A DNA stretch of 26,631 nucleotides from a virus, in the IMG/VR virus record IMGVR_UViG_3300042309_001892, positions 1 through 26,631 of that record, one strand, 5' to 3'. Of the stretch, positions 2,798-18,698 are shown piece by piece. The position numbers and the translations under genes are program-made. Every line of letters starts with the position of its first letter. The first letter of the stretch is position 1. Under the pieces are notes generated by a model, which was not told the DNA's origin, did no database searches, and saw only the letters and a list, made by a program, of their open reading frames with translations.

Positions 2798-3471
2798 AAC
2801 TGCATGTCTTCTACTCGGCTGAACACGCGGAGATCTTCAGGAGGTACTTCCTCGGCACCCTCAAGAAGGGCCCATCGGACATGGATGTGATTGAGCACCA
2901 CTATGTCCCCATGTCCCCCGGCAACGGCGACTTCATGAGCGACTCGTTCCTGGAGGTCATAAGGGCCAAGCTCGGGGAGGTTTGCCGTTCCATAGCCGAG
3001 TCTTACGGATCGATCATAGTCTGGAGCGACGTGGACATACAGTTCTTCGCCCCGGCGGCGGCCATAAAGGACGAGATCGCAAGACAGATCGAGGACAAAG
3101 ACATAGTGTTCCAGGACGAGGGCGACGGAACCTGCAATTCGGGCTTCATGGCGATCAGGTGCTCCCCCCGGACCCTAGCCCTCTTCTCGTATGTCAGTTG
3201 CCTCTGCGAGTCCTACGGCCTGAACGAACAGCCCGTCCTTGCGGGCGTTCTCCTAGAGGGTAGTTTCCCGGCCACCGTGGGAATCAAATGGGGCCTCCTA
3301 GACCGAAGATTCTGGGCCACCTCCCAAGGACAGCCCAGCCCAAACATTCTCATCCACCATGCAAACTGCACGCCACCGATGGAAGGTCTCACCTCCATCG
3401 AGATCAAAAAAATGCACATGGACGAGGTCAGGAGCCAGTTCGAACTGTATCTGGCCGGTCTTTCGGGCTAG
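2794..3471 (+). CDS. Nucleotide-diphospho-sugar glycosyltransferase (PF03407-like)
   Basis: This 225-residue protein has the layout of the 'nucleotide-diphospho-sugar transferase' family, a GT-A fold. It starts with a beta strand (KLHVFYSAE) and has the acidic metal-site motif WSDVDIQFF at residues 77-85 (D79-x-D81). 'CNSGFMAIR' at about 114-122 is the usual acceptor-side signature, and a terminal 'HHAN' motif follows. The expected reaction is transfer of a sugar from a nucleotide-sugar, with phage DNA, a virion protein or host surface glycan as possible acceptor; the sequence does not decide. It overlaps the upstream small membrane gene by 4 bases. Its 3' end overlaps the convergent Nudix gene by 44 bases. 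Confidence 0.7.
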   Translation: MKLHVFYSAEHAEIFRRYFLGTLKKGPSDMDVIEHHYVPMSPGNGDFMSDSFLEVIRAKLGEVCRSIAESYGSIIVWSDVDIQFFAPAAAIKDEIARQIEDKDIVFQDEGDGTCNSGFMAIRCSPRTLALFSYVSCLCESYGLNEQPVLAGVLLEGSFPATVGIKWGLLDRRFWATSQGQPSPNILIHHANCTPPMEGLTSIEIKKMHMDEVRSQFELYLAGLSG

Positions 3472-3949
3472 TCAGCCTTCCCAGCACGGCCTCGATCTCC
3501 CTGCCGCTGTTGTCCAGGAGGGCCTTCAGGCCGAAGTGCATCGGGGAGGGCCAATCCCCGTACTCCACCCATTCGTACCCCTGCGTCTCCCAGTTGAGAT
3601 TCGGCTTGAACTCGTGAGGCACCACGGCGAGGAAGTTGTGGTAACGGAAATCGCCCTTGCTGAACACGTACAGGGGTACCATCTGCAGGACGGAGGTCGC
3701 CCCCGCCTCCTCCTCTACCTCCCTTCTCGCGGCCTCCGCGGGGTTCTCGTCCCCGTCCATGGCTCCGCCCCACACGCCCCATGTGCCAGGCTGCTCGACC
3801 CTCATCGACCTATGGGGGAGCAGGATCCTCCTGGAGTCGGCCGCGACCATTATCGCCCCGGCCCCCGCACGCCCCCAGAATCCCGTGTCGCGCAGGGCGG
3901 CCGCGTGCTCCGTATCGTTCTCAAAAATCCACTCAAGGAAGGTCATCAT
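3428..3949 (-). CDS. Nudix hydrolase with a capsid-targeting-like N-terminus
   Basis: The protein is 173 residues from ATG 3949 (a second ATG follows at 3946). It carries a perfect Nudix box, G-x5-E-x7-REVxEExGA, at residues 62-84. The box glutamates (E77, E80, E81) should bind the divalent metal for hydrolysis of a nucleoside diphosphate linked to another group. The frame extends upstream to 4060, but that part overlaps the divergent gene at 3966; an alternative start is 3967. The chosen start gives MMTFLEWIFE, which resembles the MKTFxEWLxxxE leader of the neighbouring internal proteins, with a possible cleavage 'IFE/N'. Neither start has a good ribosome site. If packaged, the enzyme would enter the cell with the DNA. 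The substrate is not predictable (nucleotide pool, NAD-type or cap-like compounds). Confidence 0.85.
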   Translation of the reverse strand: MMTFLEWIFENDTEHAAALRDTGFWGRAGAGAIMVAADSRRILLPHRSMRVEQPGTWGVWGGAMDGDENPAEAARREVEEEAGATSVLQMVPLYVFSKGDFRYHNFLAVVPHEFKPNLNWETQGYEWVEYGDWPSPMHFGLKALLDNSGREIEAVLGRLTSPKDRPDTVRTGS

Positions 3950-3965
3950 AAAGCGTATATAGGAC

Positions 3966-6041
3966 ATGCTTTTCAAAGAATGGTTGCTCCTCCAGGAGTC
4001 GATAATAGTGAACACGGGGCAGCATGAAATCCCCCTCGGCAAGTCGAACGAGGCCTCCAAGGTCGTCGAGTTCTCGTACGCGACTGACTCGCACTACTCG
4101 TCCTTCGAGATTTGGCCGTTCTCGGAGGACAGGAAGGGATATGTCTTCACGGGCAACGCGACGGTGATCGGCATAATCAAGAACACGCCCATATTCGCCG
4201 ACAACGGAGCCGACAGGGCGTTCATACAGGCCCTGACGGCGTCCCTCAACGCCTCGGGCTACAAAGCCCTCCCGTACAGGGAGGGAGACAGCATGTGGAT
4301 GGGCGTCTTCAAGGGCGCTGGCGCGGACGACGACGATCTCCTCGGGTCCATGAAGGGAGAGAAGGACCCGGACACGGCGACCACCCCTAAGATGGGGGAT
4401 AAGGCACCGGCGGACAGGAAGCTGACCTCGGGCATCAGCGTCAGCAGGGCCAGCGGCTCGTGGGCCTATTTCATAAGAATCAACTCCGGCGACGCGGGCT
4501 CCTACATCGGAGCCATCGAGAGGCTCATGAAGGCCGCCATAAAGCCCCTCGTCGACAACAACCTCGTGGACTACTACCGCATCGTCAGGGGCAGGAACTA
4601 CAAGGCGGAGGAATCGGTTTGGTCGGAGAAGGGCAAGAGGGAGAAGGACGAGTCACGAGGCGCCGCCGACAAGTCGGCCGCCTACATGAAGTTCCTTGCG
4701 GAAAGGATGCTGGCGAACCACCCGAAGGCCAAGGAGGTCGTCCTAGGACACTTCCGCCACTCATGGAACAAGGATGTGAAGCCTTCGAACGAAAAAGTCC
4801 CGATGGACGATCTGAAGGCTTACATCCGCGACAGCCACGGGGAGAGCCCGTTCCTCTACTTCTTCCTCGACACCATACAGGGGAACAACCAAAGCATGTA
4901 CGAGGCTCTGGAAGACGCCGCAAACACTCCAAACTACAACGACGCGATATCGATCTACAAGGAGATCGACGGCGACGAGTACGACTACATGATCGAGGAG
5001 CCGCGACTCTGGATGACCCAGGCCCTCAAGATTTTCTCCCTTTCGGACTTCCTCCACAAGAACTCCAGATCGCACTTCGAGAAGTTCAAGAGCGAGTACG
5101 AGGAGGCGCTCAACCGATGGCTGAAATCCGGCCCGACGATCAGGCCCATGGAACTCAAGCCCCTCAAGGACCTATCCGACCACATTGAGGTACACGACAA
5201 GGATCGAATAAGCGACTCCCACGACAAGCGCGAAAAGGCAAACAAAGAATTCATCAAAAGACAGGAAGATGAATACAGGAAGGCCGACGAGAAGCTCATC
5301 AAGATGAAGCAGGTCATAGCGCTGGGCCAATTCAAGTACCTGATGCTGGGCAAGGACTCGTCATGGAAGGACATATCGCACAACTACATCAACGGATACG
5401 ACGAGGTGGACGTGGGACTGCTGGCCCTTGAAGAGGAGCTCGTCGACAGGGAGTCGATCATGCATTCCGCGCACGAGAAGGCCAGCGAGGACGCCTGGGC
5501 CGACGCGGAGGATAAGAAGTCCGAGACATACGGCCAGGACAAGGACGAGGTAGAAGACGACATAGACTACGAGTGGGACGACTACATGGACGAAAGGGAG
5601 TTCGACGAGGGAGAGTTCGACGGCCTCTCCGAGGACCAGAAGAAGGCCAAGATCAAGGAGGACTACCTGGACGACTTCGTCGGATGGAAAAAGGAGCAGC
5701 TCCAGAAAAAGGAAGAGGAAGAGAGCTGGAAGTACGAGCCGGAGGCCGACGAATCCGACATCAGGAAGTACGAGGGGGAGTTCGCCGAGGAGCAGGCCTA
5801 CGAGGACGGACTCGTCTGGATGCGATGGGTGGACGACGAAAGCCGAGACATAGAGGTCTTCGCACACCACAAGCACTACGAAAAGGCCAGGGAGATGGTC
5901 AGGAAGAACATAGCCGATGGCATGGTACTAAAGGACAAGTACGACGAGCCACTGATCCGCAAAGACCAGAGGGTCGAGTTCGAGCTCGTGGGCGAAGGAG
6001 ATTCCTCCAAGGAGACATCCATGAGGGCCAGAGAGGTCTAA
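3966..6041 (+). CDS. Large acidic putative internal (capsid-packaged) protein
   Basis: This 691-residue protein belongs to no family I recognise. It begins MLFKEWLLLQESI, matching the capsid-targeting leader pattern, with a predicted gp21-type cut LQE/S. Residues about 150-250 form a mixed alpha/beta region. From about residue 430 to the end it is highly charged, with long Glu/Asp/Lys helices and acidic runs (about 530-640), probably coiled coil. It is divergent from the Nudix gene with only 16 bases between the ATGs, and its stop overlaps the convergent gp88-family gene by 4 bases. The coding region is clearly GC-rich with strong G/C third-position bias. The ribosome site is modest (TAGGAC before ATG). 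Packaging and ejection are inferred from the N-terminus only; its size would make it a major internal protein. Confidence 0.75.
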   Translation: MLFKEWLLLQESIIVNTGQHEIPLGKSNEASKVVEFSYATDSHYSSFEIWPFSEDRKGYVFTGNATVIGIIKNTPIFADNGADRAFIQALTASLNASGYKALPYREGDSMWMGVFKGAGADDDDLLGSMKGEKDPDTATTPKMGDKAPADRKLTSGISVSRASGSWAYFIRINSGDAGSYIGAIERLMKAAIKPLVDNNLVDYYRIVRGRNYKAEESVWSEKGKREKDESRGAADKSAAYMKFLAERMLANHPKAKEVVLGHFRHSWNKDVKPSNEKVPMDDLKAYIRDSHGESPFLYFFLDTIQGNNQSMYEALEDAANTPNYNDAISIYKEIDGDEYDYMIEEPRLWMTQALKIFSLSDFLHKNSRSHFEKFKSEYEEALNRWLKSGPTIRPMELKPLKDLSDHIEVHDKDRISDSHDKREKANKEFIKRQEDEYRKADEKLIKMKQVIALGQFKYLMLGKDSSWKDISHNYINGYDEVDVGLLALEEELVDRESIMHSAHEKASEDAWADAEDKKSETYGQDKDEVEDDIDYEWDDYMDEREFDEGEFDGLSEDQKKAKIKEDYLDDFVGWKKEQLQKKEEEESWKYEPEADESDIRKYEGEFAEEQAYEDGLVWMRWVDDESRDIEVFAHHKHYEKAREMVRKNIADGMVLKDKYDEPLIRKDQRVEFELVGEGDSSKETSMRAREV

Positions 6042-7090
6042 TGCTCGGTCAGGAGGATCGTCTTGACATCCTTCCGGTACAGAGCGTCGTCCCCGTCGCC
6101 GGGCGTCACTAGCACATGCCACTTGGGTTCCGCACCCTCGGGCGTCCTCATCATCTCGCCGTAGGTCAGTATGTCCGGCTCCGCTAGGCCGAAGTGCTTA
6201 GCGACTATGCCCTTGAGCTTCCTCTTGTCGTCTATCTTCTTGACATCCAGCCCCGCGAAGAGCTCTTTAGGAACCCATTTGGATGCCTTGCTCATGCCTT
6301 TCACCTTGTCCGCCTCCCTGCGTAGCCCCCCCGTAGAGAAGGCCAAGTTCTGCCCAAGCCCCGCGTCGTTGGCCGCATCGGCGACTTTAGTGTACGCGCC
6401 GTGGTCTATGTTGTACCCCTCTTCATGGAGCTTCGTCATGACCCTGTGTGCCATGGTCCTGTATCTCTCCGAGAAAAAGTCGCCCGAGTCATTCCAACGG
6501 AAAAGCACCTTTGACTCGTACCCCGCTTTGGCCTCGTGCAATTCGCACTTCTCCTTGAGCTCCTCATACAGCATTCTTTCGTAATCGTCGGGAAAATTCA
6601 GCATGTAGTTGAGCCTCTTAGTCATGCTGTCGTACGATTCGGAGAACCTGATGTAGTTGTTCTTCCTTGCATAGCAGATGAGGACGCAATCCCCGGCCCC
6701 TGGGCATGTGTTTATGACATAGAATTTACCGCCCTTGATGTCGTAAACTATGCCTCTAAATGCCGGAATCCCCGTCTTGTAGACGAATTCGTTGGGCATT
6801 CCGCTCTTTAGCATCTTGTCGGTTTGGTTCACGACATTGTTCGGCTTCTCGGTGATCCTCTTGATGAAGTCTTCAACATCAAGGTCGCCGTCCTTGAAGA
6901 GATCGGACGAGGCGTGGATGAACGGCATGGAGGATGGGAACTTCTCCCTGTCCTTGGTCTTCTTGCCGAAGTTGGCCCTGACGGAGTTCAGATATTCAAC
7001 CAGTTTGTCCATGTTGAGGCATGTTTTGTTGACATCCGAGAAGTCGCTGTCCCAGTCTACCTCGTTGTAAAGCCATTCTTTGAATTCCAT
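6038..7090 (-). CDS. Gp88-family protein with capsid-targeting-like N-terminus
   Basis: This 350-residue protein resembles the phage 'gene product 88' family (named after a mycobacteriophage protein). It has the cysteine motif TCPGAGDCVLICYARK at residues 128-143, followed by 'RWNDSGDFFSERY' (198-210) and 'HGAYTKVADAAND' further on. The family's biochemical role is unknown; the Cys-x5-Cys-x3-Cys cluster and conserved Asp residues suggest a metal or enzymatic centre. The N-terminus MEFKEWLYNEVDW follows the same leader pattern as nearby putative internal proteins. The ATG at 7090 has only a weak ribosome site. Its 3' end overlaps the convergent 691-residue gene by 4 bases. Confidence 0.75.
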   Translation of the reverse strand: MEFKEWLYNEVDWDSDFSDVNKTCLNMDKLVEYLNSVRANFGKKTKDREKFPSSMPFIHASSDLFKDGDLDVEDFIKRITEKPNNVVNQTDKMLKSGMPNEFVYKTGIPAFRGIVYDIKGGKFYVINTCPGAGDCVLICYARKNNYIRFSESYDSMTKRLNYMLNFPDDYERMLYEELKEKCELHEAKAGYESKVLFRWNDSGDFFSERYRTMAHRVMTKLHEEGYNIDHGAYTKVADAANDAGLGQNLAFSTGGLRREADKVKGMSKASKWVPKELFAGLDVKKIDDKRKLKGIVAKHFGLAEPDILTYGEMMRTPEGAEPKWHVLVTPGDGDDALYRKDVKTILLTEH

Positions 7091-7187
7091 GGAAATATGT
7101 ATTGACTTGTCATTAGAAAACCATAGTAATTATTAGAGTTTCTACTGGCCTTCAAGACCTCGTACGTCCGTACAAGCGAACTGGAGC

Positions 7188-7229
7188 GAAATGAAAACGG
7201 GCTCCGGCTTTGACGCCGGAGCCCGTTTG
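7188..7229 (-). terminator. Rho-independent terminator
   Basis: A near-perfect 15-base stem (AAACGGGCTCCGGC, 6-base loop, complement) lies between the minus-strand genes at 7245 and 7090. Read on the minus strand it is followed by TTTTCATTT. It ends the propeller-gene transcript 16 bases after its stop and separates it from the gp88-family gene. Confidence 0.9.
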
Positions 7230-7244
7230 TTTTCGTACTCAAAA

Positions 7245-9500: not shown

Positions 9501-9531
9501 TCGTACCTCCTTGTAATAAGCCTTGTACAAT

Positions 9532-9539
9532 TATTTATG
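9532..9539 (-). promoter_or_regulatory. T4-type late promoter candidate (CATAAATA)
   Basis: On the minus strand the octamer CATAAATA differs by one base from the T4 late promoter box TATAAATA. It lies 31 bases before the ATG of the propeller gene, leaving room for a short leader containing the strong AAGGAGGT ribosome site. The assignment is by motif and position only. Confidence 0.45.
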
Positions 9540-9588: not shown

Positions 9589-10044
9589 TCACCTAGGAAG
9601 CATACGAAGCGTCTTTTCGTAATCTTGGTCATTTTGCCACTCTTCACGCCACGCATTAAATAGGGCGTCATATGTATGTTGAACCCTTATTGAATGTATC
9701 GCGGCAATATCTACAGGGTTGAATTTCTTATCATTGACTTGAAAATCAACGATGCGCCCCGATCCCCCTTCGTAGTCTTCGTCGTTCTCGTATCTATCCG
9801 CATCCACCATTCCTTGTACTCTTTGGGTTCTACCAGGAGCGACATAAATATCCATATCAACAAACTTTCCATAAAGAACCTGGAATTCTTCTTGATCCCA
9901 AGGAAGCCCGGCCTTATCCAAGGCTTGTTCTATCACCTTGAAGGCCGCCTTTTCTTGATCATCGTACGATGAGCTAACTAAAGGCCCTTTAGCTAGATCC
10001 CCAGAACCCTCCAGAATAATCAACATCTCGTAAAAACTCTTCAT
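9589..10044 (-). CDS. Putative internal protein with capsid-targeting sequence (MKSFYEML)
   Basis: The protein is 151 residues from ATG 10044. An upstream in-frame ATG at 10077 would add 11 residues. The internal start is preferred because AAGGAG lies at ideal distance and because it places MKSFYEMLIILEGSG, the targeting leader, at the N-terminus; the predicted cut is ILE/G. The rest is an acidic alpha/beta protein ('AAFKVIEQALDKAGLPWDQEEF...', 'VDADRYENDEDYEGGSGRI'), with no recognised family. Curiously, the upstream ATG at 10077 sits just after the shared leader motif (CTAGATAGGCATG) used as the start context of sister genes, so the gene may once have started there or could have two starts. 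Confidence 0.7.
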   Translation of the reverse strand: MKSFYEMLIILEGSGDLAKGPLVSSSYDDQEKAAFKVIEQALDKAGLPWDQEEFQVLYGKFVDMDIYVAPGRTQRVQGMVDADRYENDEDYEGGSGRIVDFQVNDKKFNPVDIAAIHSIRVQHTYDALFNAWREEWQNDQDYEKTLRMLPR

Positions 10045-10124: not shown

Positions 10125-10514
10125 TTAACTCTCCGCCTTCAACTTTGCCAAATTATAGGCGATCCCTACAAGATTGTCCCAATTCTTCTCAATGTACTCG
10201 GGAGGACCACCAATCTGCGCAACAACGTCGGCCGCCTTTTCCGTCGGAACCATTTCGATCGCATCCCAAGGACAAACTTTTAATTCATAAGGATTGGTCT
10301 TCTTGCCGGGGATATGAACACAAACCTCGCAACCAACACACCTGTCCAAATCGATCTGGCACCAACTCTGTAGATTATGGAACTTGTCATGTTGCTGAAT
10401 CTTGATAATACAATCAACAGGACAAACCTCCAAACAAGCCTCGCACCCAGTGCAATTATCTGCATTTATAATGGCTAACTCTTTTGGAAGTTTTTTTCTA
10501 GGAAGTTGTTTCAT
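10125..10514 (-). CDS. Two-cluster [4Fe-4S] ferredoxin
   Basis: This 129-residue protein is a bacterial-type ferredoxin. Cluster 1 is C21-x2-C24-x2-C27-x3-C31-P (NCTGCEACLEVCP). The second site is C59-x2-C62-x2-C65 with a longer loop to C81-P (KVCPWDAIEMVP). Extra cysteines C35 and C52 are present. The spacing and the C-terminal helix ('EKNWDNLVGIAYNLAKLK') are those of cellular dicluster ferredoxins, so this is a one- or two-electron carrier of the cytoplasm. It lacks the capsid-targeting leader of its neighbours, so it is probably made in the cell during infection. GGAAAG precedes the ATG. It sits in a minus-strand run between two small putative internal-protein genes. It is an auxiliary metabolic gene by definition; its redox partner is unknown. 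Confidence 0.9.
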   Translation of the reverse strand: MKQLPRKKLPKELAIINADNCTGCEACLEVCPVDCIIKIQQHDKFHNLQSWCQIDLDRCVGCEVCVHIPGKKTNPYELKVCPWDAIEMVPTEKAADVVAQIGGPPEYIEKNWDNLVGIAYNLAKLKAES

Positions 10515-10536: not shown

Positions 10537-10842
10537 TTAGTCCTCGATTTCGTCGAACTCCTTCATAGCGGCCGCGAACTCCTCCAGCCTGGAAGTGGCC
10601 TTTTCCAGAGCATGGTAGTACTTGTCCGCTTGCTCGCTGCCCAACTTCTTCGCACCCGGACCATGCCATACGTAGGCCGTTGCCCACTGGGCTGCTCTGA
10701 GTCCCTCGGTGGATATCCGGCGGAGCTCGTCCAGCTTTTTCCTCCATGTGTAGTCGCTCATGGGCCCGCCCATGTCGTTCTGGAACGCATAGGACTCCGT
10801 GAGGCCCGCCAGATAAAGTTCGTAATTGTTCGCTTTCTTCAT
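10537..10842 (-). CDS. Small putative internal protein, variant targeting leader
   Basis: The protein is 101 residues from ATG 10842, chosen because GGGAGGAGAC precedes it. The N-terminus MKKANNYELYLAGLTESYA is not the standard MKTFYEWL form. It keeps the aromatic-Glu-Leu core and a possible LTE/S cut, so packaging is only possible. The remainder is predicted helical ('YTWRKKLDELRRISTEGLRAAQ', 'YYHALEKATSRLEEFAAAM') with no recognised family. The shared leader motif (GGCCTAGATAGG) and a GATAAATA box lie just upstream, as for the standard members. It is 22 bases upstream of the ferredoxin gene and probably cotranscribed with it. Confidence 0.6.
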   Translation of the reverse strand: MKKANNYELYLAGLTESYAFQNDMGGPMSDYTWRKKLDELRRISTEGLRAAQWATAYVWHGPGAKKLGSEQADKYYHALEKATSRLEEFAAAMKEFDEIED

Positions 10843-10955: not shown

Positions 10956-11195
10956 TCAAAATCCAGTTATGAATTTCTCCGCTTCCTCGGCGTCATTCAT
11001 AGCCATCATAGCCATAGCGCCGATCATCGGGTTTTTGTGCCTGCTGTCTCCGATCTTTTCTAGATCCGAAACCATAGAAAGCACAGCGTTCCGGATCTCT
11101 CCCTTCTTGAGGTACTCCATAGCCCTGTTCTTGGCCCACTCCAGATCCTTGTCCGCAGATTCAAAGATTCTCATCATTTCGTAAAAAGTCTTCAT
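10956..11195 (-). CDS. Small internal protein with capsid-targeting sequence
   Basis: The protein is 79 residues, starting MKTFYEMMRIFESADK, a textbook match to the targeting leader with predicted cut IFE/S. After cleavage about 67 residues would remain: two or three amphipathic helices ('EWAKNRAMEYLKKGEIRNAVLSM') and a short Met/Ala-rich segment ('NPMIGAMAMMAMND'). This is comparable in size to the small T4 internal proteins. No enzymatic motif was seen. The start directly follows the shared leader motif CATAGATAGGGC. Confidence 0.75.
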   Translation of the reverse strand: MKTFYEMMRIFESADKDLEWAKNRAMEYLKKGEIRNAVLSMVSDLEKIGDSRHKNPMIGAMAMMAMNDAEEAEKFITGF

Positions 11196-11404: not shown

Positions 11405-12013
11405 ATGCCAGCCACAACAACGGAAGGTACAGGATCTGGTTCGGTAGATAATATCAGAAGGAAGATAGAGAACTCCGTCGTCAGGGAAGAGAACCTATTC
11501 CCGCCGGAGATACTCATGCCGGTCGGCGTGGTGCTCCCCTACGTCTCAAGCAACGCCCCGAACGGGTGGCTGAGTTGCTTGGGTCAAGAGCTTTATAGAG
11601 GAGATTATCCCGACTTGTTCGCGGTGATCGGAACCACCTACGGTGCGGGAGACGGAAGCACGACATTCAGACTGCCCAATTTGGCGGGTAGAGTGGTCGT
11701 TGGACAAGGAAGCGGAGCAGGCCTCACCTCCAGGAGCATGGGAGCCACGGGCGGAGCCGAGACCCACACCTTGACCACCGGCGAAATGCCGAGCCACTCC
11801 CACACATCCAACGCAGTAGGAGGAACCGTGGGTCTGATAACTGCGGACGGAAATAACACTGCGGTCGGCGTAGATGGATCGGCAGTAGAACCCAACTTGT
11901 ACGCAGCCCCCGCAGCATTAAGCATTAATAGTGCTGGTAGCGGTTCCGCGCACAACAACATGCAGCCGTTCGCCGTACTGAACTACATCATCAGATACGG
12001 ACAAAAAACCTAA
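11405..12013 (+). CDS. Tail-collar-domain fibre protein
   Basis: This 202-residue protein has a phage tail collar domain (PF07484 type). 'EILMPVGVVLPYVSSNAPNG' opens it at about residue 35, 'YPDLFAVIGTTYGAGDGSTTF' and 'LPNLAGRVVVGQG' follow, and 'PFAVLNYIIRYG' closes it at the C-terminus. These domains form the distal part of short tail fibres and related microcystin-dependent-like proteins. Residues 1-30 (TTTEGTGSGSVDNIRRKIEN) are shared with the next gene and probably attach the protein to the virion. The start has an ideal AAGGAGGAACAAAC. It is on the plus strand, the first of two genes each closed by its own terminator. Confidence 0.9.
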   Translation: MPATTTEGTGSGSVDNIRRKIENSVVREENLFPPEILMPVGVVLPYVSSNAPNGWLSCLGQELYRGDYPDLFAVIGTTYGAGDGSTTFRLPNLAGRVVVGQGSGAGLTSRSMGATGGAETHTLTTGEMPSHSHTSNAVGGTVGLITADGNNTAVGVDGSAVEPNLYAAPAALSINSAGSGSAHNNMQPFAVLNYIIRYGQKT

Positions 12014-12026
12014 GGTGAATTTGAGA

Positions 12027-12059
12027 AAAGCCCCCGGGGAAACTCGGGGGCTTTTTTTA
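12027..12059 (+). terminator. Rho-independent terminator
   Basis: The hairpin AAAAGCCCCCG, 8-base loop, CGGGGGC is followed by CTTTTTTTA. It begins 14 bases after the tail-collar gene. Nearly the same stem-loop recurs after the next gene. Confidence 0.95.
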
Positions 12060-12115
12060 TTTTTGGATCTAATTTTTAGCCAATTTAAGTCCGTTCTATT
12101 TTAAAAGGAGCTTAT

Positions 12116-12970
12116 ATGACACAGACGACAGAAGGCACAGGACCAGGATCAGTTGATAGGGTAAAATCTAGAATACTCAATGGTGATGTAAAAAATTCAA
12201 ATCTTGAATTAGTAACAATTATAGATGGCGGCAGCGGAGACCTTGAAAACGTAGAACTAATCAAAGCCCCCAACGGAACCTCGGAAAGCATGGACGGACT
12301 CGACCTCGTGATAAGAGGCGGAGAGGGCTATGCGACAGCAGGAGAAGAGGACGACGCCGACGGCGGCGACGTAACCATATCAGGTGGTATGCAACATGGA
12401 AATGGAGATAGTGGGGATGTGAGGATTAACGGTGGAGATAGTAGCACGGAGTTCGAAAACTCCGACGCAGGTGATGTTACCCTCCGCGGCGGCGACGGCC
12501 TCGGACCGGCGGACAGCGACGGCGGAGACGTGACGATCAGGGGCGGAGATTGTCAGGCCGAAGGAACCACAGGGGAGGCTGGCGACGTTACTCTAAGAGG
12601 TGGAAACTCCGATGGGTCATCTGGCGGAAACGTGCAGATTTTTGGTGGTGACTCGGGGTCTTCAGAAGAAGAAGAAGATGATGACAACGACGGCGGAAGC
12701 GTAACGATCAGAGGAGGCTCCGCGACCAGCAACACCGCTCGTGGAGGAAGTGTGACTATAGAAGCGGGGAGCGGTAACTACGGCCATGGCGTTGTTTATA
12801 TACAGAACCTCTTCAGGATTCCCGGTTTTAATGCCTTGGCCGATCTAGAAGCCATAATCCCTGAAGGCGCAGAAGAAAATGGAATGATGTGCTATGTGAA
12901 TAACTTGAATGCTTTTGTCGTAAGAGCGAACGGTGCTTGGGTCACTTTAAATACAAGCCCTATAACCTAA
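12116..12970 (+). CDS. Repetitive fibre protein with GGDVTIRGG repeats
   Basis: This 284-residue protein has three parts. Residues 1-30 (TTEGTGPGSVDRVKSRILNG) match the N-terminus of the preceding tail-collar protein. Residues about 65-225 hold some nine copies of a short repeat of the form GGDVT[IL]RGG[DN] separated by variable acidic Ser/Gly/Asp loops, which predicts a beta-helix or stacked fibre shaft. Residues 230-284 ('NLFRIPGFNALADLEAIIPEG...', then 'GAWVTLN') are a small tip domain seen at the ends of fibre proteins. AAAAGGAGCTTAT gives a good start. The protein is very acidic, so metal-stabilised loops are possible. A second tail fibre or whisker attached at the same site as the collar protein is inferred. 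Confidence 0.75.
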   Translation: MTQTTEGTGPGSVDRVKSRILNGDVKNSNLELVTIIDGGSGDLENVELIKAPNGTSESMDGLDLVIRGGEGYATAGEEDDADGGDVTISGGMQHGNGDSGDVRINGGDSSTEFENSDAGDVTLRGGDGLGPADSDGGDVTIRGGDCQAEGTTGEAGDVTLRGGNSDGSSGGNVQIFGGDSGSSEEEEDDDNDGGSVTIRGGSATSNTARGGSVTIEAGSGNYGHGVVYIQNLFRIPGFNALADLEAIIPEGAEENGMMCYVNNLNAFVVRANGAWVTLNTSPIT

Positions 12971-12994
12971 TTTAACAAGGCGTTTTTACAATGG

Positions 12995-13030
12995 AACGGC
13001 CCCCGGGGAAACTCGGGGGCCGTTTTTTTT
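12995..13030 (+). terminator. Rho-independent terminator
   Basis: The hairpin AACGGCCCCCG, loop, CGGGGGCCGTT is followed by eight T. It sits between the plus-strand fibre gene and the convergent internal-protein gene. The stem core is almost identical to the terminator at 12027, so one was probably copied with the fibre cassette. Confidence 0.95.
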
Positions 13031-13061
13031 GGCCTTGACATTTAGTCTGCCCACATGATCA

Positions 13062-13691
13062 TCATTTGATTCTTTCCACGACGGCAGGTTGTCTCACTTC
13101 GCCGTAGCGTATTTTGAATCCCTTCACAACCACACTCACATTAGATCCAGATACAAGTCTATTCCCATTGATTTCAATAACTTCGCTAGGATTCGTCACC
13201 ATGAACTCATCTTCTTCTGGAAAAGCTTCCCATTTGCACTCATCTTCAAGAATCTTCAACAGACTATCTTTGATGTGAGCGTCCATCCGTCCCTCAAGAG
13301 ATAAACTTCTATAGATCTGATAAAGATGTCGCCCGCGTCTGTTCTTGTCGTTTTCCTGCCTGCTCTGATTCCAATACTCCCACAGCTCATTAAGTTCCCC
13401 TTTACCCTTCCAATACTTGTTAGCAATATTTTCTATGTACTCCACGGGATTTGAAGTAGTCTTCGGCGGAGCCATCTGGGGCTGTCTGATTTGAGGAGCG
13501 GGTTCGTTATGACTTGCTGGCGCTTGTTTGGCATTGGGCCCATCAAACAACCTTTGGAAGTCGTCAACGCTCATGCCCTTCTTTGGAGGAGGGGTCGTAG
13601 CCGCCTTTGGTGTTGGCTGCTTATTCTTCCCAAACAAGTTAGAAAAGAAACCGGCCTCCCTCAATTCTAGCCATTCATTAAATGTTTTCAT
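13062..13691 (-). CDS. Putative internal protein, proline-rich linker type (paralog 1)
   Basis: The protein is 209 residues from ATG 13691, which gives MKTFNEWLELREAGFFSNL, the targeting leader with cut LRE/A. A longer frame to 13724 is rejected because it lies over the upstream gene's end and loses the leader. After the leader comes a conserved 'GFFSNLFGKNKQPTP' segment, then a Pro/Gln/Lys linker (about 25-90), then a helical region and a C-terminal domain ending 'VVVKGFKIRYGEVRQPAVV'. The same plan (FFSNLF, linker, 'AFPxEE', 'VKGFK') is found in the next gene upstream, so they are diverged tandem paralogs 4 bases apart. The function is unknown. Confidence 0.75.
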   Translation of the reverse strand: MKTFNEWLELREAGFFSNLFGKNKQPTPKAATTPPPKKGMSVDDFQRLFDGPNAKQAPASHNEPAPQIRQPQMAPPKTTSNPVEYIENIANKYWKGKGELNELWEYWNQSRQENDKNRRGRHLYQIYRSLSLEGRMDAHIKDSLLKILEDECKWEAFPEEDEFMVTNPSEVIEINGNRLVSGSNVSVVVKGFKIRYGEVRQPAVVERIK

Positions 13692-13695
13692 TGAT

Positions 13696-14421
13696 TCATC
13701 CTCTATTGTCTCTTTTAAGGGCATCTATGCTGACTACGGCTTTCATCGTCCTTCCGCCATACTTGAAGCCTTTTACTATAACCTTCGCAGGCTCTTCAAG
13801 ACTACTTATCCCCGCGTCGTTGATGTGGTATTCGCTTGAATCCCAGTCGGGCTTCTGATACGGAACGACAACTTCTTCGTCCGGAAACGCAACTGCCCCC
13901 AATTCATCCTTGAACATTTTCTCTATGATAGAAATTGCCTTGTCGATTTCCGAACCGGACAGTCCGTAGTTATCGCCCCCGTAGTTCTTAGCCCGAGATA
14001 ACCACGAATAAGCCTCAAATGCCCTAGAACTATTAGATGCATTTTTCAAAGAATGATCAGACTCCGGCCTCATTCTTTGAATTGGGAGTATTTTATCTCC
14101 CACCAACCCATACAGTTGGTCGAATAGCGTTGTGCCCCCGGATTTAGGAAAATTACTAGCCGTTGATGGCTTGTTTTGTTGATTAGGTTGTGATGTTTTT
14201 GGTAGGGTAGGCTGCGATGGACTAGTCTTATTTTCTGAAGGCTTATATCCAGGAACTAATATCCTCATCGCATCATCGTGTGCGTCAGACTGTCTTTTAC
14301 GCTCTTTTTCTTCTGGCGTTTCTTTATTTACATTTTGTGGAGGAGTTTGTTTCTTGGCTCTAAATAAATTGGAGAAGAAATTAGCCTCGTTCACTTCTAG
14401 CCATTCATAAAATGTTTTCAT
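13696..14421 (-). CDS. Putative internal protein, proline-rich linker type (paralog 2)
   Basis: The protein is 241 residues. The leader MKTFYEWLEVNEANFFSNL has predicted cut VNE/A. As in its tandem paralog, 'NFFSNLFRAKKQTPP' follows, then a long Pro/Ser/Thr/Gln/Lys low-complexity linker (to about residue 95). A helical domain follows, and an end domain with 'AFPDEEVVV' and 'VIVKGFKYGGRTMKAVVSI'. The linker is longer and more Ser/Thr-rich than in paralog 1. The architecture suggests an anchor segment and a compact effector domain joined by a flexible tether. The start directly follows the shared leader motif. No enzyme signature is visible. Confidence 0.75.
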   Translation of the reverse strand: MKTFYEWLEVNEANFFSNLFRAKKQTPPQNVNKETPEEKERKRQSDAHDDAMRILVPGYKPSENKTSPSQPTLPKTSQPNQQNKPSTASNFPKSGGTTLFDQLYGLVGDKILPIQRMRPESDHSLKNASNSSRAFEAYSWLSRAKNYGGDNYGLSGSEIDKAISIIEKMFKDELGAVAFPDEEVVVPYQKPDWDSSEYHINDAGISSLEEPAKVIVKGFKYGGRTMKAVVSIDALKRDNRG

Positions 14422-14456
14422 GCCCTATCTAGGCCTTATTATTGGTATATTTATTG
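14422..14456 (-). promoter_or_regulatory. Shared leader with AATAAATA late-promoter-like box
   Basis: On the minus strand AATAAATATACC lies about 26 bases before the ATG and is followed by AATAAGGCCTAGATAGGGCATG split by two bases. This is the clearest copy of box plus leader core, and a good candidate for a T4-type late promoter with the transcript starting just upstream of the start codon. Confidence 0.55.
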
Positions 14457-14491
14457 TTCGCCGGCCCACTAACGGAGCGGAATCAAAAAAA

Positions 14492-15004
14492 TCACACCGC
14501 AACCTTGGTGCGACTAGAGGACACGGCTTGCATCATTTGATTGGCCTTGTTGGTTAATATCCCATTCGCCAGCTTCTGAGCATATCCAGACCCCACGGAG
14601 CCATCCTTGATGGCTTGAAAAAGATTGCTCGCTATCTGGCCCTTCTCTTGCTCGGTAAGATAAGCCAAGCACGCATCCGATATTTCCACATAAGTATCAA
14701 CCGTTCTCTGAATCAGAGAGGGATCGCGAGTTTGAGCCTTCTGGGAAGCCCTCTGGCTGGCCAACTGCATCGCTTGCTTGACGGCCCGGCTTTCTCTCCA
14801 AGCCCTCTTGAGATCACTTACGGCTCCTACGGCCGCCTTCGCAACCCCTCCAAGCCCAGGAACAAGGCTCATGCCACCCGTGACGGCCGCAACCCCGGCA
14901 TCAGTCGCCATATCTCCCGCCGCCGCTTTAGCACGACCTGCCAAACTGGAGCCTACGCCTCCACCTATCGCCTTGGCTTCCAAAAATTCATAGAATGTTT
15001 TCAT
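14492..15004 (-). CDS. Putative internal protein with Gly/Ala-rich hydrophobic segment
   Basis: The protein is 170 residues. Leader MKTFYEFLEAKAIGGG has a likely cut FLE/A. The next part is Gly/Ala-rich and moderately hydrophobic (about residues 14-62, 'AAVTGGMSLVPGLGGVAKAA'), the type of sequence that can insert in or fold against membranes. It is followed by a basic helix (LKRAWRESRAVKQAMQLASQ) and an amphipathic helical C-terminus. No known family. If the protein is ejected, a role at the inner membrane during DNA entry is conceivable but unproven. The start follows a variant leader (ACTAGATAGAGC). Confidence 0.7.
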   Translation of the reverse strand: MKTFYEFLEAKAIGGGVGSSLAGRAKAAAGDMATDAGVAAVTGGMSLVPGLGGVAKAAVGAVSDLKRAWRESRAVKQAMQLASQRASQKAQTRDPSLIQRTVDTYVEISDACLAYLTEQEKGQIASNLFQAIKDGSVGSGYAQKLANGILTNKANQMMQAVSSSRTKVAV

Positions 15005-15037
15005 GCTCTATCTAGTCATTTTCATTGAGTATTTAGC
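15005..15037 (-). promoter_or_regulatory. Shared leader, variant copy
   Basis: The minus strand reads GCTAAATACTC, a spacer, then ATGACTAGATAGAGC before ATG 15004. It keeps the TAAATA box and the TAGATAG core with a few substitutions. Confidence 0.45.
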
Positions 15038-15040
15038 CGC

Positions 15041-15361
15041 TCATGCTCGTGCGTCAGAGCCAGGCCCCATCCACGTAGGCCTCTTGTAACTGGGATCCCG
15101 CGACATCTGAAAGGACAACTCTTGCTCCATCGCATCTATTCCTTTCTGAGTGGGGACAAAACCGCCCGAAGCTCCGCGCTCCAAGAAACCCGCCCCCAAA
15201 CACTTACGAAGATGACTCAAATGGGTCGGCTCTACACGATCAGATATCATACCAAGGCCCTTCTCCAAAGAATCAAACATAACCCAGATGTTAAGACTGG
15301 TGGGAGTCCCCTTCGGAGCACGAGCCTCATTCAATTCAAGCCATTCATAAAATGTTTTCAT
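15041..15361 (-). CDS. Putative internal protein with winged-helix-like domain (short paralog)
   Basis: The protein is 106 residues. The leader MKTFYEWLELNEARAPKGT has cut LNE/A. The mature part reads like a small winged helix: a helical start (NIWVMFDSLEKGLG), a helix-turn-helix-like stretch (THLSHLRKCLGAGFLERG), a wing (GASGGFVPTQKG) and a last helix. DNA binding in the newly infected cell is a reasonable inference from that pattern, but no specific family is recognised. It is nearly identical, also at DNA level, to the first 93 residues of the gene at 16152-16949. Confidence 0.7.
   Translation of the reverse strand: MKTFYEWLELNEARAPKGTPTSLNIWVMFDSLEKGLGMISDRVEPTHLSHLRKCLGAGFLERGASGGFVPTQKGIDAMEQELSFQMSRDPSYKRPTWMGPGSDARA
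15066..15328 (-). repeat. 263-base direct repeat, copy 1 (partner 16651-16913)
   Basis: Copies of equal length encode the winged-helix-like domain of two internal-protein genes and differ at only a small number of positions. This points to a recent duplication. The intervening 15384-16073 gene is unrelated. Confidence 0.85.
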
Positions 15362-15377
15362 GCCCTATCTAGGCCAA
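15362..15377 (-). promoter_or_regulatory. Shared leader core (short copy)
   Basis: The minus strand reads TTTGGCCTAGATAGGGC before ATG 15361. Only the core is conserved. The upstream TAAATA box is absent because the previous gene ends just before it, so this gene is probably read through from the 15384-16073 gene. Confidence 0.5.
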
Positions 15378-15383
15378 AGCAAT

Positions 15384-16073
15384 CTAAATCTGCTCCACCC
15401 TCAAGGGATCGGCGTTAGAGAAACCGAGGCTGACCGGATTCAAATTCAAAGCGTCCTGAAATCCGTCTTGATTCCAGTCGCAGTAAATGAGGATAAATCC
15501 AATGGTATCGTCCGGCGAATCGCCACCTACCGGAAGATCGGCCTGCGAGGTCAACTGCTTCACAAGCCGCCAAGTCACGACCCTGAGGCCACTCGCCAAC
15601 TCCAAGTGAACGGTGATCCCGAGGTCCCGCAGACGAGTCCCGATGCCCAATGAATATCCGACGTTTCCCACGGGCTGGGCGACATTGGTGCTATCACACA
15701 CGTCATTGTAAAAGTCGTAAAGATGGTCAATGTCCTCGAAAACTATCCTCTCATCCTCTTCGACTATGGGCGGGGAAGATTCCCTGAAGTCCTCCAAGAC
15801 CGAATTCACGTCCGCAACCGGATAAAGCCAGATCGTGTCTAGGACAGTCTTCCATCCCGAGACGTAAGAAACCACGTCGTCATAGGACTCGCCGTCCCTT
15901 CTGCTTCCGATAACCTTGACGTTGCCCTGCTGGTCCCTCGTCATCACCATGTTGACAGTCCTCTGCAAAGACACGCCGTTCAAGACGCTGGTGTCCAAAC
16001 CACCCTCGGTGGCAATGTTGGTAAGCACAGGAGTGAGATCAATCGGATATTCAATTGGATTTGTGTAGTTCAT
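15384..16073 (-). CDS. Structural-type protein with 'EGxLDTS...DGESYDD' N-terminal module
   Basis: This 229-residue protein has an N-terminal ~65 residues (DLTPVLTNIATEGGLDTSV, 'SLQRTVNMVM', 'RRDGESYDDVV') that align with the 105-residue protein starting at 2503 and with the C-terminal module of the propeller protein. The rest is beta-rich and acidic, with 'DWNQDGFQDALN' near the C-terminus, a possible calcium-type Asp loop. It lacks the capsid-targeting leader although it is embedded in the internal-protein run. A virion surface or fibre-associated role is inferred from the shared module. The start lacks a strong ribosome site. Confidence 0.6.
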   Translation of the reverse strand: MNYTNPIEYPIDLTPVLTNIATEGGLDTSVLNGVSLQRTVNMVMTRDQQGNVKVIGSRRDGESYDDVVSYVSGWKTVLDTIWLYPVADVNSVLEDFRESSPPIVEEDERIVFEDIDHLYDFYNDVCDSTNVAQPVGNVGYSLGIGTRLRDLGITVHLELASGLRVVTWRLVKQLTSQADLPVGGDSPDDTIGFILIYCDWNQDGFQDALNLNPVSLGFSNADPLRVEQI

Positions 16074-16151
16074 ATAATTATGTATGAAATCACAAACCCT
16101 TTTCAGTGTGAAGTGAGTAAGGAATTTAGACCGGATTTTCTGGCGGTAAAA

Positions 16152-16949
16152 TTACTTAAACAAACCCGCCAATCTTCGAAGTGCTGTATCAACCCTTAAA
16201 ACATTAACTTGGTGATTGTCTTTGATGGATTTTTCTAAACTTTTTATTATCTCTCTATACATTAGCAAATTGTAAAAATCTTCTGATACCACCACTGTGT
16301 CGGGACTATTGAAATCAAAATTCCCAATCTTATATCTTGGCCCCATTCCTGAAAGATTTGCATCATGACCAAATAGTAGATTTTGGTCAGTCAAGTTCTT
16401 TTCCCAAACCAAATACTGCTTCCATTCTTTTGAAAAATGATTGTTAAGTTTATCTAAACATTTTTGTTTTGACAAATTTACTACATTTTTAACTTCTTCT
16501 ATCTCTTTTTGATCATAACTAAAGTCTTGTTTAGACCCAGTTCTTCTACTCTGTCTCCATTGTTGAATTTTTGCTAGCAACTGATTTAAAATATCTCTGT
16601 TGTAATTTTCATAAATCTGAGTTGATGACACAGAGGCAATATATTCGGAACCCATCCACGCAGGCCTCTTGTAACTGGGATCCCGCGACATCTGAAAGGA
16701 CAACTCTTGCTCCATCGCATCTATCCCTTTCTGAGTGGGGACAAAACCGCCCGAAGCTCCGCGCTCCAAGAAACCCGCCCCCAAACACTTCCGAAGATGA
16801 CTCAAATGAGTCGGCTCCACACGATCAGATATCACCCCGCCACCCTTCTCCAGAGAATTAAACATGACCCAGACATTGAGACTGGTGGGAGTCCCCTTCG
16901 GAGCTCGAGCCTCGGCCAACATCGCCAGCATTTCATTAAATGTTTTCAT
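16152..16949 (-). CDS. Putative internal protein: winged-helix-like domain fused to AT-rich C-terminal extension
   Basis: The protein is 265 residues. Leader MKTFNEMLAMLAEARAPKG has predicted cut LAE/A. Residues about 14-105 repeat the winged-helix-like domain of the 106-residue paralog almost exactly. From about residue 107 on, the protein is new: a long Lys/Asn/Gln-rich helical region ('QIYENYNRDILNQLLAKIQQ', 'LDKLNNHFSKEWKQYL') and a final helix. This extension is encoded by visibly AT-richer DNA with different codon preference, so it was probably fused onto the duplicated N-terminal domain. The function of the extension is unknown. Confidence 0.75.
   Translation of the reverse strand: MKTFNEMLAMLAEARAPKGTPTSLNVWVMFNSLEKGGGVISDRVEPTHLSHLRKCLGAGFLERGASGGFVPTQKGIDAMEQELSFQMSRDPSYKRPAWMGSEYIASVSSTQIYENYNRDILNQLLAKIQQWRQSRRTGSKQDFSYDQKEIEEVKNVVNLSKQKCLDKLNNHFSKEWKQYLVWEKNLTDQNLLFGHDANLSGMGPRYKIGNFDFNSPDTVVVSEDFYNLLMYREIIKSLEKSIKDNHQVNVLRVDTALRRLAGLFK
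16651..16913 (-). repeat. 263-base direct repeat, copy 2 (partner 15066-15328)
   Basis: Second copy of the DNA encoding the winged-helix-like domain. The homology ends on one side at the targeting leader and on the other at the junction with the AT-rich extension, so the leader and C-terminal part were not part of the same copied block. Confidence 0.85.
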
Positions 16950-16990
16950 GCCCTATCTAGGCCTTTTCTTGGCATATTTCTCGTTGGCCG
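16950..16990 (-). promoter_or_regulatory. Shared leader with GAGAAATA box
   Basis: The minus strand reads GGCCAACGAGAAATATGCC, then AAGAAAAGGCCTAGATAGGGC before ATG 16949. Similarity to the copy at 10859-10890 extends upstream through TTCGGCCAACGA, so here about 50 bases are shared. A 14-codon frame ending KYAKKRPR can also be read through it. Confidence 0.5.
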
Positions 16991-17053
16991 AACCCATAAG
17001 AACTCATTTTAATTGACCTTGCCGCATAAAGTGAATTTAATTAATGTGACGGG

Positions 17054-18295
17054 ATGAAAAGTGTTAAAAAAAGAAAAACCTTGGCTGACTTCCCCGAACT
17101 AGCCGCAGAATTACACCCAACAGACAATGGAGATCTGAAGCCAGAGGATGTCGGATTTGGGTCAAATAAAAAATTGATATGGCAATGCAAAAAAGTAAAA
17201 GAACACATATGGCCAGCAGAAGTGGGCAGTAGATCAAAAGGCCGTGGGTGTCCATATTGTGCTGGCCGAAAAGTTTCCATTGATAATTGTCTTGCAACCA
17301 CTCACCCCGAACTTGCCGCGGAATTACATCCAACGGAAAATAAATATTTAACTGCGGAAAACATTACCGCTGGGTCGGGTGAAAATTTGATATGGCAATG
17401 CAAAAAAGTAAAAGAACACATATGGCCAGCAAAAGTGTCCAATAGAGTAAATGGTACTGGGTGCCCATATTGTGCTGGCCGAAAAGTTTGCATTGACAAT
17501 TGTCTTGCAACCACCCACCCCGAACTGGCCGCAGAATTACACCCAACAGAGAATGGAGATTTAACTGCGGAAAAAGTCACTGCTGGATCGCATAAAATTG
17601 CGGTTTGGCAATGCCAAAAAGTAAAGGAACACATATGGCCCGCACCAGTGAACGAGAGATCAAAAGGCCGTGGGTGTCCATATTGTGCTGGCCGAAAAGT
17701 TTCCATTGATAATTGTCTTGCAACCACTCACCCCGAACTTGCCGCGGAATTACATCCAACGGAAAATAAAGATTTAACTGCGGAAAACATTACTGCTGGG
17801 TCAAATAAAAAATTAATATGGCAATGCAAAAAAGTGAAAGAACATAAATGGCCAGCAGAAGTGCGCGATAGATCAAAAAAAGGCAGTGGGTGTCCATATT
17901 GTGCAGAATCAAAAGGAGAAAATAAAATTTCAGAGTTGTTGAAAATTATGGGTCTGCCATTCAAAAGGCAAGCCAAATTCAAAAAATGTAAGAATAAAAA
18001 TGTGCTTCCCTTTGATTTCATCGTCAAGCTACCGAACGGAAAAGGCTTCTTGATAGAATATCAAGGAATTCAACATTACGAGCCAATAAGAAGAAGCAGA
18101 TCTTGGACAAAGAAAAAGACCATGGCTCACTTCAAGGCGATCCAAGAAAGAGACAAAATCAAATCAGAATGGGCCAAAAAAAATAAAATACCATTGCTCG
18201 TCATCCCATGCTGGGACCATGAAAAAATGCCAAAGTTGATTGAGGAGTTCGTGGAATTAATTAAACGGGACGAACCCAAATATACTTCTTCTTAA
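17054..18295 (+). CDS. Free-standing endonuclease with four zinc-ribbon (DUF4379-type) repeats
   Basis: This 413-residue protein carries four tandem repeats of about 71 residues. Each holds 'HPELAAELHPTEN', 'LIWQCKKVKEHIWPAxV' and 'GCPYCAG', the pattern of the treble-clef/zinc-ribbon DUF4379 (PF14311), with WxC and CPYC supplying the zinc ligands. The C-terminal ~130 residues look like a Vsr/PD-(D/E)xK-type nuclease. They contain 'LPFDFIVKLPNGKGFLIEYQ' (Asp near 319, Glu-x-Gln near 333-335) followed by 'GIQHYEP', as in phage homing endonucleases. Modular DNA reading by the zinc repeats and cutting by the C-terminal domain is inferred. The gene is AT-rich, opposite in strand to its neighbours and has a weak ribosome site, all consistent with recent insertion. 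Confidence 0.8.
   Translation: MKSVKKRKTLADFPELAAELHPTDNGDLKPEDVGFGSNKKLIWQCKKVKEHIWPAEVGSRSKGRGCPYCAGRKVSIDNCLATTHPELAAELHPTENKYLTAENITAGSGENLIWQCKKVKEHIWPAKVSNRVNGTGCPYCAGRKVCIDNCLATTHPELAAELHPTENGDLTAEKVTAGSHKIAVWQCQKVKEHIWPAPVNERSKGRGCPYCAGRKVSIDNCLATTHPELAAELHPTENKDLTAENITAGSNKKLIWQCKKVKEHKWPAEVRDRSKKGSGCPYCAESKGENKISELLKIMGLPFKRQAKFKKCKNKNVLPFDFIVKLPNGKGFLIEYQGIQHYEPIRRSRSWTKKKTMAHFKAIQERDKIKSEWAKKNKIPLLVIPCWDHEKMPKLIEEFVELIKRDEPKYTSS
17231..17376 (+). repeat. 146-base internal repeat, copy 1 (partner 17657-17802)
   Basis: The two copies differ at about two positions and are spaced exactly 142 codons apart, twice the protein repeat length. Zinc-ribbon units 1-2 and 3-4 therefore arose by recent duplication of a two-unit block or are being homogenised. 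Confidence 0.9.
17657..17802 (+). repeat. 146-base internal repeat, copy 2 (partner 17231-17376)
   Basis: This copy covers the end of zinc-ribbon unit 3 and the first part of unit 4. Its sequence is almost identical to copy 1. Confidence 0.9.
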
Positions 18296-18698
18296 ACGGA
18301 ACCAAGATGTTGTAGTCGCCCGTATTCGCAGACTGATAGAGAGCCCCGCCCAACTCAACCACCGAAGGATCGCCCGGATTTCGTTCGTGTTGCCTGGCAA
18401 AGATTTCGTAAAGCCGATGCCAGTCAATGTCGTCGACCCTGCCCGCCAAGTCGGAGAGTCTAACCACCCGACCAGATCCTTTGAGTTCTTGAACCTTGGA
18501 CATGACGCTATTCCACATGACGCCGCCCGGCTTAAGCCCCTGGAGAACGTCCTCGGGAGACTCGCCCCCGATTATCCTCTTGGCATACTCCTCAACCTTC
18601 CTGTCTGCGGCTGGACCCACGCCCTTCGCGATACTATTCATCGCATGTCTTATGTCGTCCGCCGCATCCTCGTTCAGCCACTCATGGAATGTCTTCAT
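18261..18698 (-). CDS. Putative internal protein with capsid-targeting sequence
   Basis: This 145-residue protein starts MKTFHEWLNEDAADDIRHA, the targeting leader with likely cut LNE/D or shortly after. The rest is mostly helical ('AKGVGPAADRKVEEYAKRI', 'GVMWNSVMSKVQELKG', 'DDIDWHRLYEIFARQHERNP') with a basic C-terminus (PFKKKYIWVRPV). No family was recognised. It overlaps the convergent endonuclease gene end by 35 bases. Its start follows the leader CATAGATAGGGC, most of which is also the end of the upstream endonuclease gene. Confidence 0.75.
   Translation of the reverse strand: MKTFHEWLNEDAADDIRHAMNSIAKGVGPAADRKVEEYAKRIIGGESPEDVLQGLKPGGVMWNSVMSKVQELKGSGRVVRLSDLAGRVDDIDWHRLYEIFARQHERNPGDPSVVELGGALYQSANTGDYNILVPFKKKYIWVRPV

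Follow-up and report, generated by a model that had tools for sequence, protein, structure and literature searches.

A putative T4-type capsid targeting leader shared by many genes of a virus contig and its huge-phage relatives

A 26.6 kb stretch of virus DNA (IMG/VR record IMGVR_UViG_3300042309_001892, positions 1 to 26,631; the whole stretch is hereafter called the window) carries a T4-type head module on its minus strand, together with eight genes that open with a near-identical N-terminal leader, M-K-[TS]-F-x-E-[WFM]-[LM]. The explanation that we consider likely is that these and further genes encode a large T4-type set of internal proteins, which would be packaged in the head, cut and ejected, probably blunting early host defence. 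The mechanism is known from T4; the scale, the huge-phage setting and the enzymatic cargo are new.

Detection of the leader and its excess over chance

A weight matrix was trained solely on residues 1–8 of the window's eight strong leaders and scored at gene starts, with a cut-off score of at least 8. Start codons deep inside genes served as the control, because leaders this short give no direct E-values. Gene calls were simple open reading frame picks, and the contigs compared are fragments. In the window, 10 of the 32 called genes reached the cut-off, compared with none of 283 internal start codons (about 0.05 expected). The strong leaders, with scores of 22–26, begin at 10044, 11195, 13691, 14421, 15004, 15361, 16949 and 18698, all on the minus strand, and two good or moderate matches begin at 3966 (plus strand) and 7090 (minus strand). 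Including the two weak leaders at 3949 and 10842 (both minus strand), these results bear out an earlier note on this DNA, which had reported a shared leader on about twelve genes. These genes, named below by their start positions, are as follows (aa, amino acids; the slash marks the predicted cut):

18261–18698, minus: leader gene, 145 aa, MKTFHEWLNE/DAADD, score 24.4
16152–16949, minus: leader gene, 265 aa, MKTFNEMLAMLAE/ARAPKG, score 23.2
15041–15361, minus: leader gene, 106 aa, MKTFYEWLELNE/ARAPKG, score 26.2
14492–15004, minus: leader gene, 170 aa, MKTFYEFLE/AKAIGGG, Gly/Ala-rich body, score 22.7
13696–14421, minus: leader gene, 241 aa, MKTFYEWLEVNE/ANFFSNLF, score 26.2
13062–13691, minus: leader gene, 209 aa, MKTFNEWLELRE/AGFFSNLF, body diverged from that of its paralog 14421, score 24.5
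10956–11195, minus: leader gene, 79 aa, MKTFYEMMRIFE/SADK, score 24.1
10537–10842, minus: weak leader gene, 101 aa, MKKANNYELYLAGLTE/SYAF, carries the shared upstream DNA segment
9589–10044, minus: leader gene, 151 aa, MKSFYEMLIILE/GSGD, score 22.3
6038–7090, minus: moderate leader gene, 350 aa, MEFKEWLYNEVDW, GP88 domain (PF17338, E = 5.6e-17), score 10.1
3966–6041, plus: moderate leader gene, 691 aa, MLFKEWLLLQE/SIIV, acidic family-less body, score 9.2
3428–3949, minus: weak leader gene, 173 aa, MMTFLEWIFEND, NUDIX hydrolase (PF00293, E = 1.4e-16)

The closest relative among deposited phages is the uncultured phage LR756511 (595 kb), with a capsid protein 77.6% identical to that of the window. 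Many closer contigs are present in IMG/VR, including G001 (143 kb), whose capsid protein and protease are 100% and 95% identical, respectively; the largest members of the clade, LR756511 and G006, both exceed 500 kb. Among relatives that took no part in the training, a score of at least 8 was reached by 13 genes in G001 (0.3 expected), 13 in G002 (0.3), 16 in G008 (0.7), 29 in LR756511 (1.7) and 8 in G006 (1.4), the counts in large genomes taking in a few chance matches. A genome-wide count with the leader profile, proposed in the earlier note, thus yielded up to 29 genes per related contig. The leader is scarce in some relatives, with one gene in G012 (65 kb) and five in G003.

The consensus of 77 tagged proteins (16949 of the window and 76 from relatives) is MKxFxEWLxxxE, with F4 nearly invariant, and the mean column identity in their whole-length alignment is 5%. 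Two proteins, L272 and L283 (MKTFDEWFEEN...), resemble a common unrelated small family and were left out of the counts. A second leader type, YExLLAGxxSE, is rare, being found on one window gene and one G002 gene.

A phased glutamate site and the prohead protease

The head module of the window includes the following genes:

20358–21785, minus: gp23 major capsid protein (PF07068, E = 1e-84), conserved [ILMF]NE site before the mature part
21822–22736, minus: candidate scaffold, 304 aa, coiled-coil-like, family-less, in the gp22 position (between gp21 and gp23), on which the leader presumably docks
22736–23458, minus: gp21-type prohead protease, Peptidase_S77 (PF03420, E = 6.3e-27), presumed processing enzyme

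The Peptidase_S77 match confirms the gp21-like protease that the earlier note had placed here, and the same domain is present in all 14 of the related contigs searched and in LR756511. The candidate scaffold is conserved in relatives, and a conserved protein of 581 aa, encoded upstream of gp21, also belongs to the module.

With the window left out, [LIVMF]-x-Glu with the Glu at positions 9–16 occurs in 48 of 65 leader proteins and in 407 of 2737 others, a background rate of 15% (p = 2e-25). When the Glu was restricted to positions 11–13, which avoids the trained hydrophobic residue 8, the proportions were 24/65 and 170/2737 (p = 1e-12). Neither Asp nor Gln, put in place of Glu, was enriched in this test. 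As read from the genes, this [LIVMF]-x-Glu site without Asp or Gln enrichment is the specificity of T4 gp21. An alignment of the capsid proteins of 45 relatives showed that [ILMF]-N-E is kept just before the part aligning with mature gp23, so that a site of this type is also present in the capsid protein of the phage itself, in the region in which T4 gp23 is cut.

The cuts predicted in the earlier note generally fit this pattern, apart from 7090, where no site was found, and from 15004 and 18698, where the likely cut lies earlier (FLE/A at residue 9 and LNE/D at residue 10, respectively).

A second, diverged S77 protease is encoded at a distance from the head module in G006 (G006:C1:238199-238600) and in LR756511 (242543-242986). 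The gp21-like protease gene G010:C1:7401-8090 contains one in-frame TAA, which may reflect a sequencing error, splitting of the gene or recoding of the stop codon.

Equivalence to the leader of T4 internal proteins

Applied to T4 (269 genes), the window-trained matrix placed 61.1, ipI, ipII and ipIII among its five best matches; ipI, ipII and ipIII are annotated as internal virion proteins. In S-PM2, RaK2, KVP40, CM1 and phiKZ the scores of the same matrix were at about chance level, so that the leader is not a general phage start; S77 proteases are present in S-PM2, RaK2, KVP40 and CM1. Mutagenesis of the T4 IPIII leader has shown that residues 4 and 7 govern targeting while residues 8 and 10 govern processing, and that Asp at residue 10 blocks processing (PMC9026906). 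The conserved columns here, F4, W/F/M7, L8 and then Glu, coincide with the residues that matter in IPIII. The recovery of ipI–III, the matching key residues, the Glu site and the [ILMF]-N-E of gp23 all uphold the identification of the leader, made in the earlier note, as a T4-type capsid targeting sequence (CTS), and we regard it with high confidence as a CTS processed by a gp21-type protease.

At leader score, T4 has five candidates (the three known internal proteins, 61.1 and one other) against about 29 in LR756511, and the suggestion that the set is unusually large thus holds.

The best T4 match, gp61.1 (NC_000866 18966-19130, 54 aa, MKTFKEFIKEDMVAGD), scored above the known internal proteins and may be an unrecognised T4 internal protein.

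It is also conceivable that the leader is a tag for another compartment, such as replication factories or a membrane site, its likeness to T4 internal proteins being convergent. In its favour, tagged genes of relatives are spread genome-wide and not just near head genes, and tagged RNA-processing enzymes would work in the host cell. Nevertheless, we consider this very unlikely in view of the Glu-specific site without Asp or Gln enrichment, the recovery of T4 ipI–III and the agreement with the residues that govern targeting and processing in T4.

For a CTS, the following course of events can be proposed. Late in infection, the N-terminal 8–10 residues, with F4 and W/F/M7 as the key positions, would dock each tagged protein onto the prohead's scaffold core. 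Cutting by the gp21-type protease after the Glu of [L/I/V]-x-E, at about residues 9–13, would then remove the tag, and the mature protein would stay with the DNA and be ejected with the genome into the next host. In the first minutes there, the proteins would most likely counter host defence or repair damage, plausible tasks being tRNA and RNA repair, destruction of cyclic nucleotides and nuclease inhibition.

Several observations weigh against such a set of internal proteins. About 1.7 chance matches at a score of at least 8 are expected in LR756511, 7090 has no canonical [LIVMF]-x-E site, and no family match to the 304-aa candidate scaffold was found in Pfam or PHROGs. For the tagged proteins of the window, searches of the same two databases were convincing only for NUDIX and GP88. 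The AlphaFold models of 16949 (mean pLDDT 54, with a low-confidence leader helix at 4–14) and 14421 (mean pLDDT 43) are too poor for use. For the weak members 3949 and 10842, the leader alone is insufficient to claim membership. The case of 10842 is helped by the DNA ahead of it, where a segment shows 89% identity to its counterpart at 16949 (repeat D9), and by a look-alike start in the relative G002 (MKKTKYEMLLAGIISE/S); homologs of 10842 occur in L020, L021 and L026. The start of 3949 reads MMTFLEWIFENDTE, and a strong-leader NUDIX protein exists in the relative L029.

A shared upstream-plus-leader segment and turnover of the bodies

The likeness of the tagged genes extends to their DNA, with about 53 bp, comprising the leader codons and the bases before the ATG, common to seven window genes and ending in most of them with TAGATAGGGC-ATG (repeat family D3):

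16911–16995, minus: type copy of the shared segment of upstream DNA and leader (AAATATGCCAAGAAAAGGCCTAGATAGGGC-ATG-leader), in repeat families D3 and D9

Further copies lie at 11157, 13653, 14383, 14966, 15323 and 18660. Copies of 53–86 bp precede other genes in L019, L021, L025, L029 and G001, and an exact-pattern scan detected the segment in six contig stretches. For the window, G001 and G002 together, an element TA[TG]ATA[GT] was found within 25 nt of the start in 13 of 34 tagged genes and in 23 of 326 other genes (p = 2e-6); it is weak or absent in LR756511, G006, G003 and G008. Since the element leaves little room for a Shine-Dalgarno sequence, it was read as a putative start-proximal promoter, perhaps one of the late promoters of the phage. 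No clear distinction between tagged and untagged genes emerged from Shine-Dalgarno-like motifs.

Beyond the leader, the protein bodies are in general unrelated, as the earlier note had stated, although this does not apply to two pairs: 15361 and 16949 are 90% identical over the first 100 aa, after which 16949 has an extra helical part, and 13691 and 14421 share 72% identity over the first 25 aa and 34% overall. The two paralog pairs and the common upstream DNA could suggest that the repeated starts result from recent duplication of one gene family, the bodies having diverged and the leader having no shared function. Such an origin is extremely unlikely, given that the leader heads enzymes of unrelated folds (nucleotidyltransferase, P-loop kinase, NUDIX and 2H phosphoesterase/Acb1) as well as the T4 internal proteins, and that F4 and the W7/L8 region are retained despite variation in the codons and in adjacent residues.

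Comparison with related phages, also proposed in the earlier note, showed that most window bodies have no homolog in G001. Among the strong and moderate members, full-length homologs were found there only for the GP88 protein and the 15361/16949 body, and 14421 shares only a C-terminal stretch of 54 aa, with the reservation that G001 is a fragment and absence from it is no proof of absence from that phage. The G001 homolog of 7090 is 58% identical and has the same leader at another genome position, and that of 15361 has an altered leader, MINFYGWLELAE/ARAPKG. Different tagged genes lie downstream of the capsid gene in L019, L021, L025, L029 and L031. The homolog of 14421 in L085 is 82% identical while the L085 capsid protein is only 84% identical to that of the window, which fits horizontal exchange. 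The leader is thus kept while unrelated bodies are exchanged between related phages, as in the T4 internal proteins. This rapid turnover probably proceeds by recombination at the promoter-plus-leader segment, for which the shared DNA would provide the substrate.

Cargo of the leader in relatives and its probable role

In relatives the leader is found on recognisable enzymes. A variant of the leader is found on the CCA-adding tRNA nucleotidyltransferase of G001, G012, LR756511, G006, G008 and six further contigs, the latter being no independent evidence because the search patterns included a leader peptide. The leader forms an extension ahead of the catalytic domain, the point at which the homologs of RaK2 and KVP40 begin. 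Among P-loop kinases (AAA_33), those of G001 and G008 are tagged and the homologs in LR756511 and CM1 untagged. Strong leaders also occur on an RNA-ligase protein, whose match was attributed to L021 by its motif, and on a NUDIX protein in L029; the capsid proteins of L021 and L029 share 97% and 95% identity, respectively, with that of the window.

A tagged G003 protein matches Acb1 above the Pfam cut-off (E = 5.6e-7, 29.8 versus 27 bits) and has both HxT motifs. Acb1 is a phosphodiesterase family of the 2H phosphoesterase fold acting against the cyclic-oligonucleotide-based antiphage signalling system (CBASS). The LR756511 homolog of the G003 protein has no clear leader, and a search of related loci for Acb1 gave too few homologs for a count with and without the leader.

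Two tagged small proteins, L025:6738-7241 and L029:14682-15008, show a YHxT/YYHGA...I..G pattern and, by eye, a likeness to ADP-ribosyltransferases. Pfam did not confirm this identity for either of them and gave no match for L029:14682.

Activity on entry would be desirable for such proteins of relatives, which could repair tRNA and RNA in the face of tRNA-cutting defences or remove cyclic-nucleotide alarms, and these families strengthen the suggestion of the earlier note that ejected effectors are involved. In T4, all three internal proteins are injected inhibitors of distinct GmrSD enzymes (PMC12373910), and IPIII lacking its CTS remains protective when produced inside the host (PMC9391042). 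On balance it seems probable that most of the cargo acts on the host early after ejection.

Alternatively, the leader could be a true CTS with most tagged proteins being architectural and, instead of acting on the host, filling the core or compacting the DNA of a very large head. A huge capsid may require numerous internal proteins, some of the bodies are rich in Gly/Ala/Pro or of low complexity (14492-15004, 13062-13724), and the T4 internal proteins are also abundant core components (PMC9958956). However, the bodies, unlike core proteins, are unconserved even where the capsid proteins are identical or nearly so, and the tag is found on enzymes of relatives, including the Acb1-like protein and the CCA-adding enzyme; a mainly architectural role is thus unlikely.

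Returning to host-acting effectors, one could tentatively propose, at somewhat less than even confidence, that this huge-phage clade possesses a genome-wide recombining cassette, in which the promoter-plus-leader segment would make almost any gene a virion-delivered effector. The CCA-adding tRNA nucleotidyltransferase, RNA ligase, polynucleotide-kinase-like proteins and Acb1 would then be injected pre-made, providing counter-defence and tRNA repair before phage expression.

If a set of ejected proteins is indeed encoded, a ten-residue tag would list the injected proteins of phages that have never been grown, offering a sequence-only route to counter-defence proteins that act early, the majority of which belong to no family. 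Such a set would also suggest that some "translation" genes of huge phages, such as the CCA-adding enzyme, are carried in the virion, not made post-infection. In T4 there are three known members, each blocking one GmrSD enzyme, and a set of 10–30 would be a far richer source.

Comparison with known systems

The system most resembles T4 IPI, IPII and IPIII (Mullaney and Black 1996; PMC9026906, PMC12373910) in the type of leader (MKTYQEFIAE/A, MKTFKEF...), the role of residues 4, 7, 8 and 10, the L/I-x-E site, the gp21 protease, the unrelated bodies and the small genes swapped between strains. It differs in having at least 10 such genes in 26 kb and about 13–29 in several larger related contigs, in that the Glu often comes two residues later (site at 12), and in that the cargo of relatives includes recognisable enzymes. 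For T-even phages, a varied set of defence proteins with nothing but the CTS in common has already been published (PMC3012670, PMC12373910), and at least 10 internal proteins were reported across these phages (PMC12373910).

T4 Alt, a packaged ADP-ribosyltransferase cut by gp21, is likewise a head-packaged enzyme that is trimmed and injected, but it is one large protein, whereas here there are many small ones. In phiKZ and SPN3US, inner-body and ejection proteins are also numerous, Glu-cut and ejected; however, their propeptides are mostly much longer, the phiKZ site is S/A-x-E, and no common short leader is present (PMC5694885, PMC9026906). Membership in this type was rejected, given the short leader with [LIVMF]-x-E and the chance-level profile in phiKZ. 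The Dar proteins of P1 are similar in having an N-terminal capsid signal (the capsid targeting signal of DarB) and in being injected anti-restriction proteins, yet have no N-terminal consensus in common (PMC9024508). In the literature searched, we found no paper joining "capsid targeting sequence" with "huge phage" and no report of tagged tRNA-repair or anti-CBASS enzymes.

Individual leader genes and neighbouring features of the window

The body of 18698, the first gene past the nuclease gene that adjoins the capsid gene, is family-less and shows 46% identity over 67 aa with L266/L270. The homolog of 15004 in L031 is 91% identical and has the leader MKNFNEFLE. The genes 3966 and 3949 are divergent with 16 bp between them, and GTATATAGGAC directly abuts the ATG of 3966.

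Near the capsid gene, 18706-19818 (minus) encodes a nuclease-like protein with a TnsA-like N-terminal match and an endonuclease VII-like C-terminus, kept in many relatives. Among the tagged genes sits 17054-18295 (plus), whose product combines four treble-clef repeats of DUF4379 (213-bp period) with a C-terminal region which, by eye, resembles Vsr/homing-type nucleases; the window shares it with L030/L031. A ferredoxin-like protein with CxxC clusters is encoded at 10125-10514 (minus); 97% identical in G001, it is the best-conserved gene outside the head module in the comparison of the window with G001. An AAA ATPase (BCS1-like by eye) at 25338-26522 (plus) is divergent from the 581-aa gene, and the pair is kept in G001, G002 and G012. 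Two near-identical terminator-like hairpins, CCCCCGGGGAAACTCGGGGG followed by a T-run, are located at 12025-12061 and 12994-13030, behind the plus-strand genes 11405 (tail type) and 12116.

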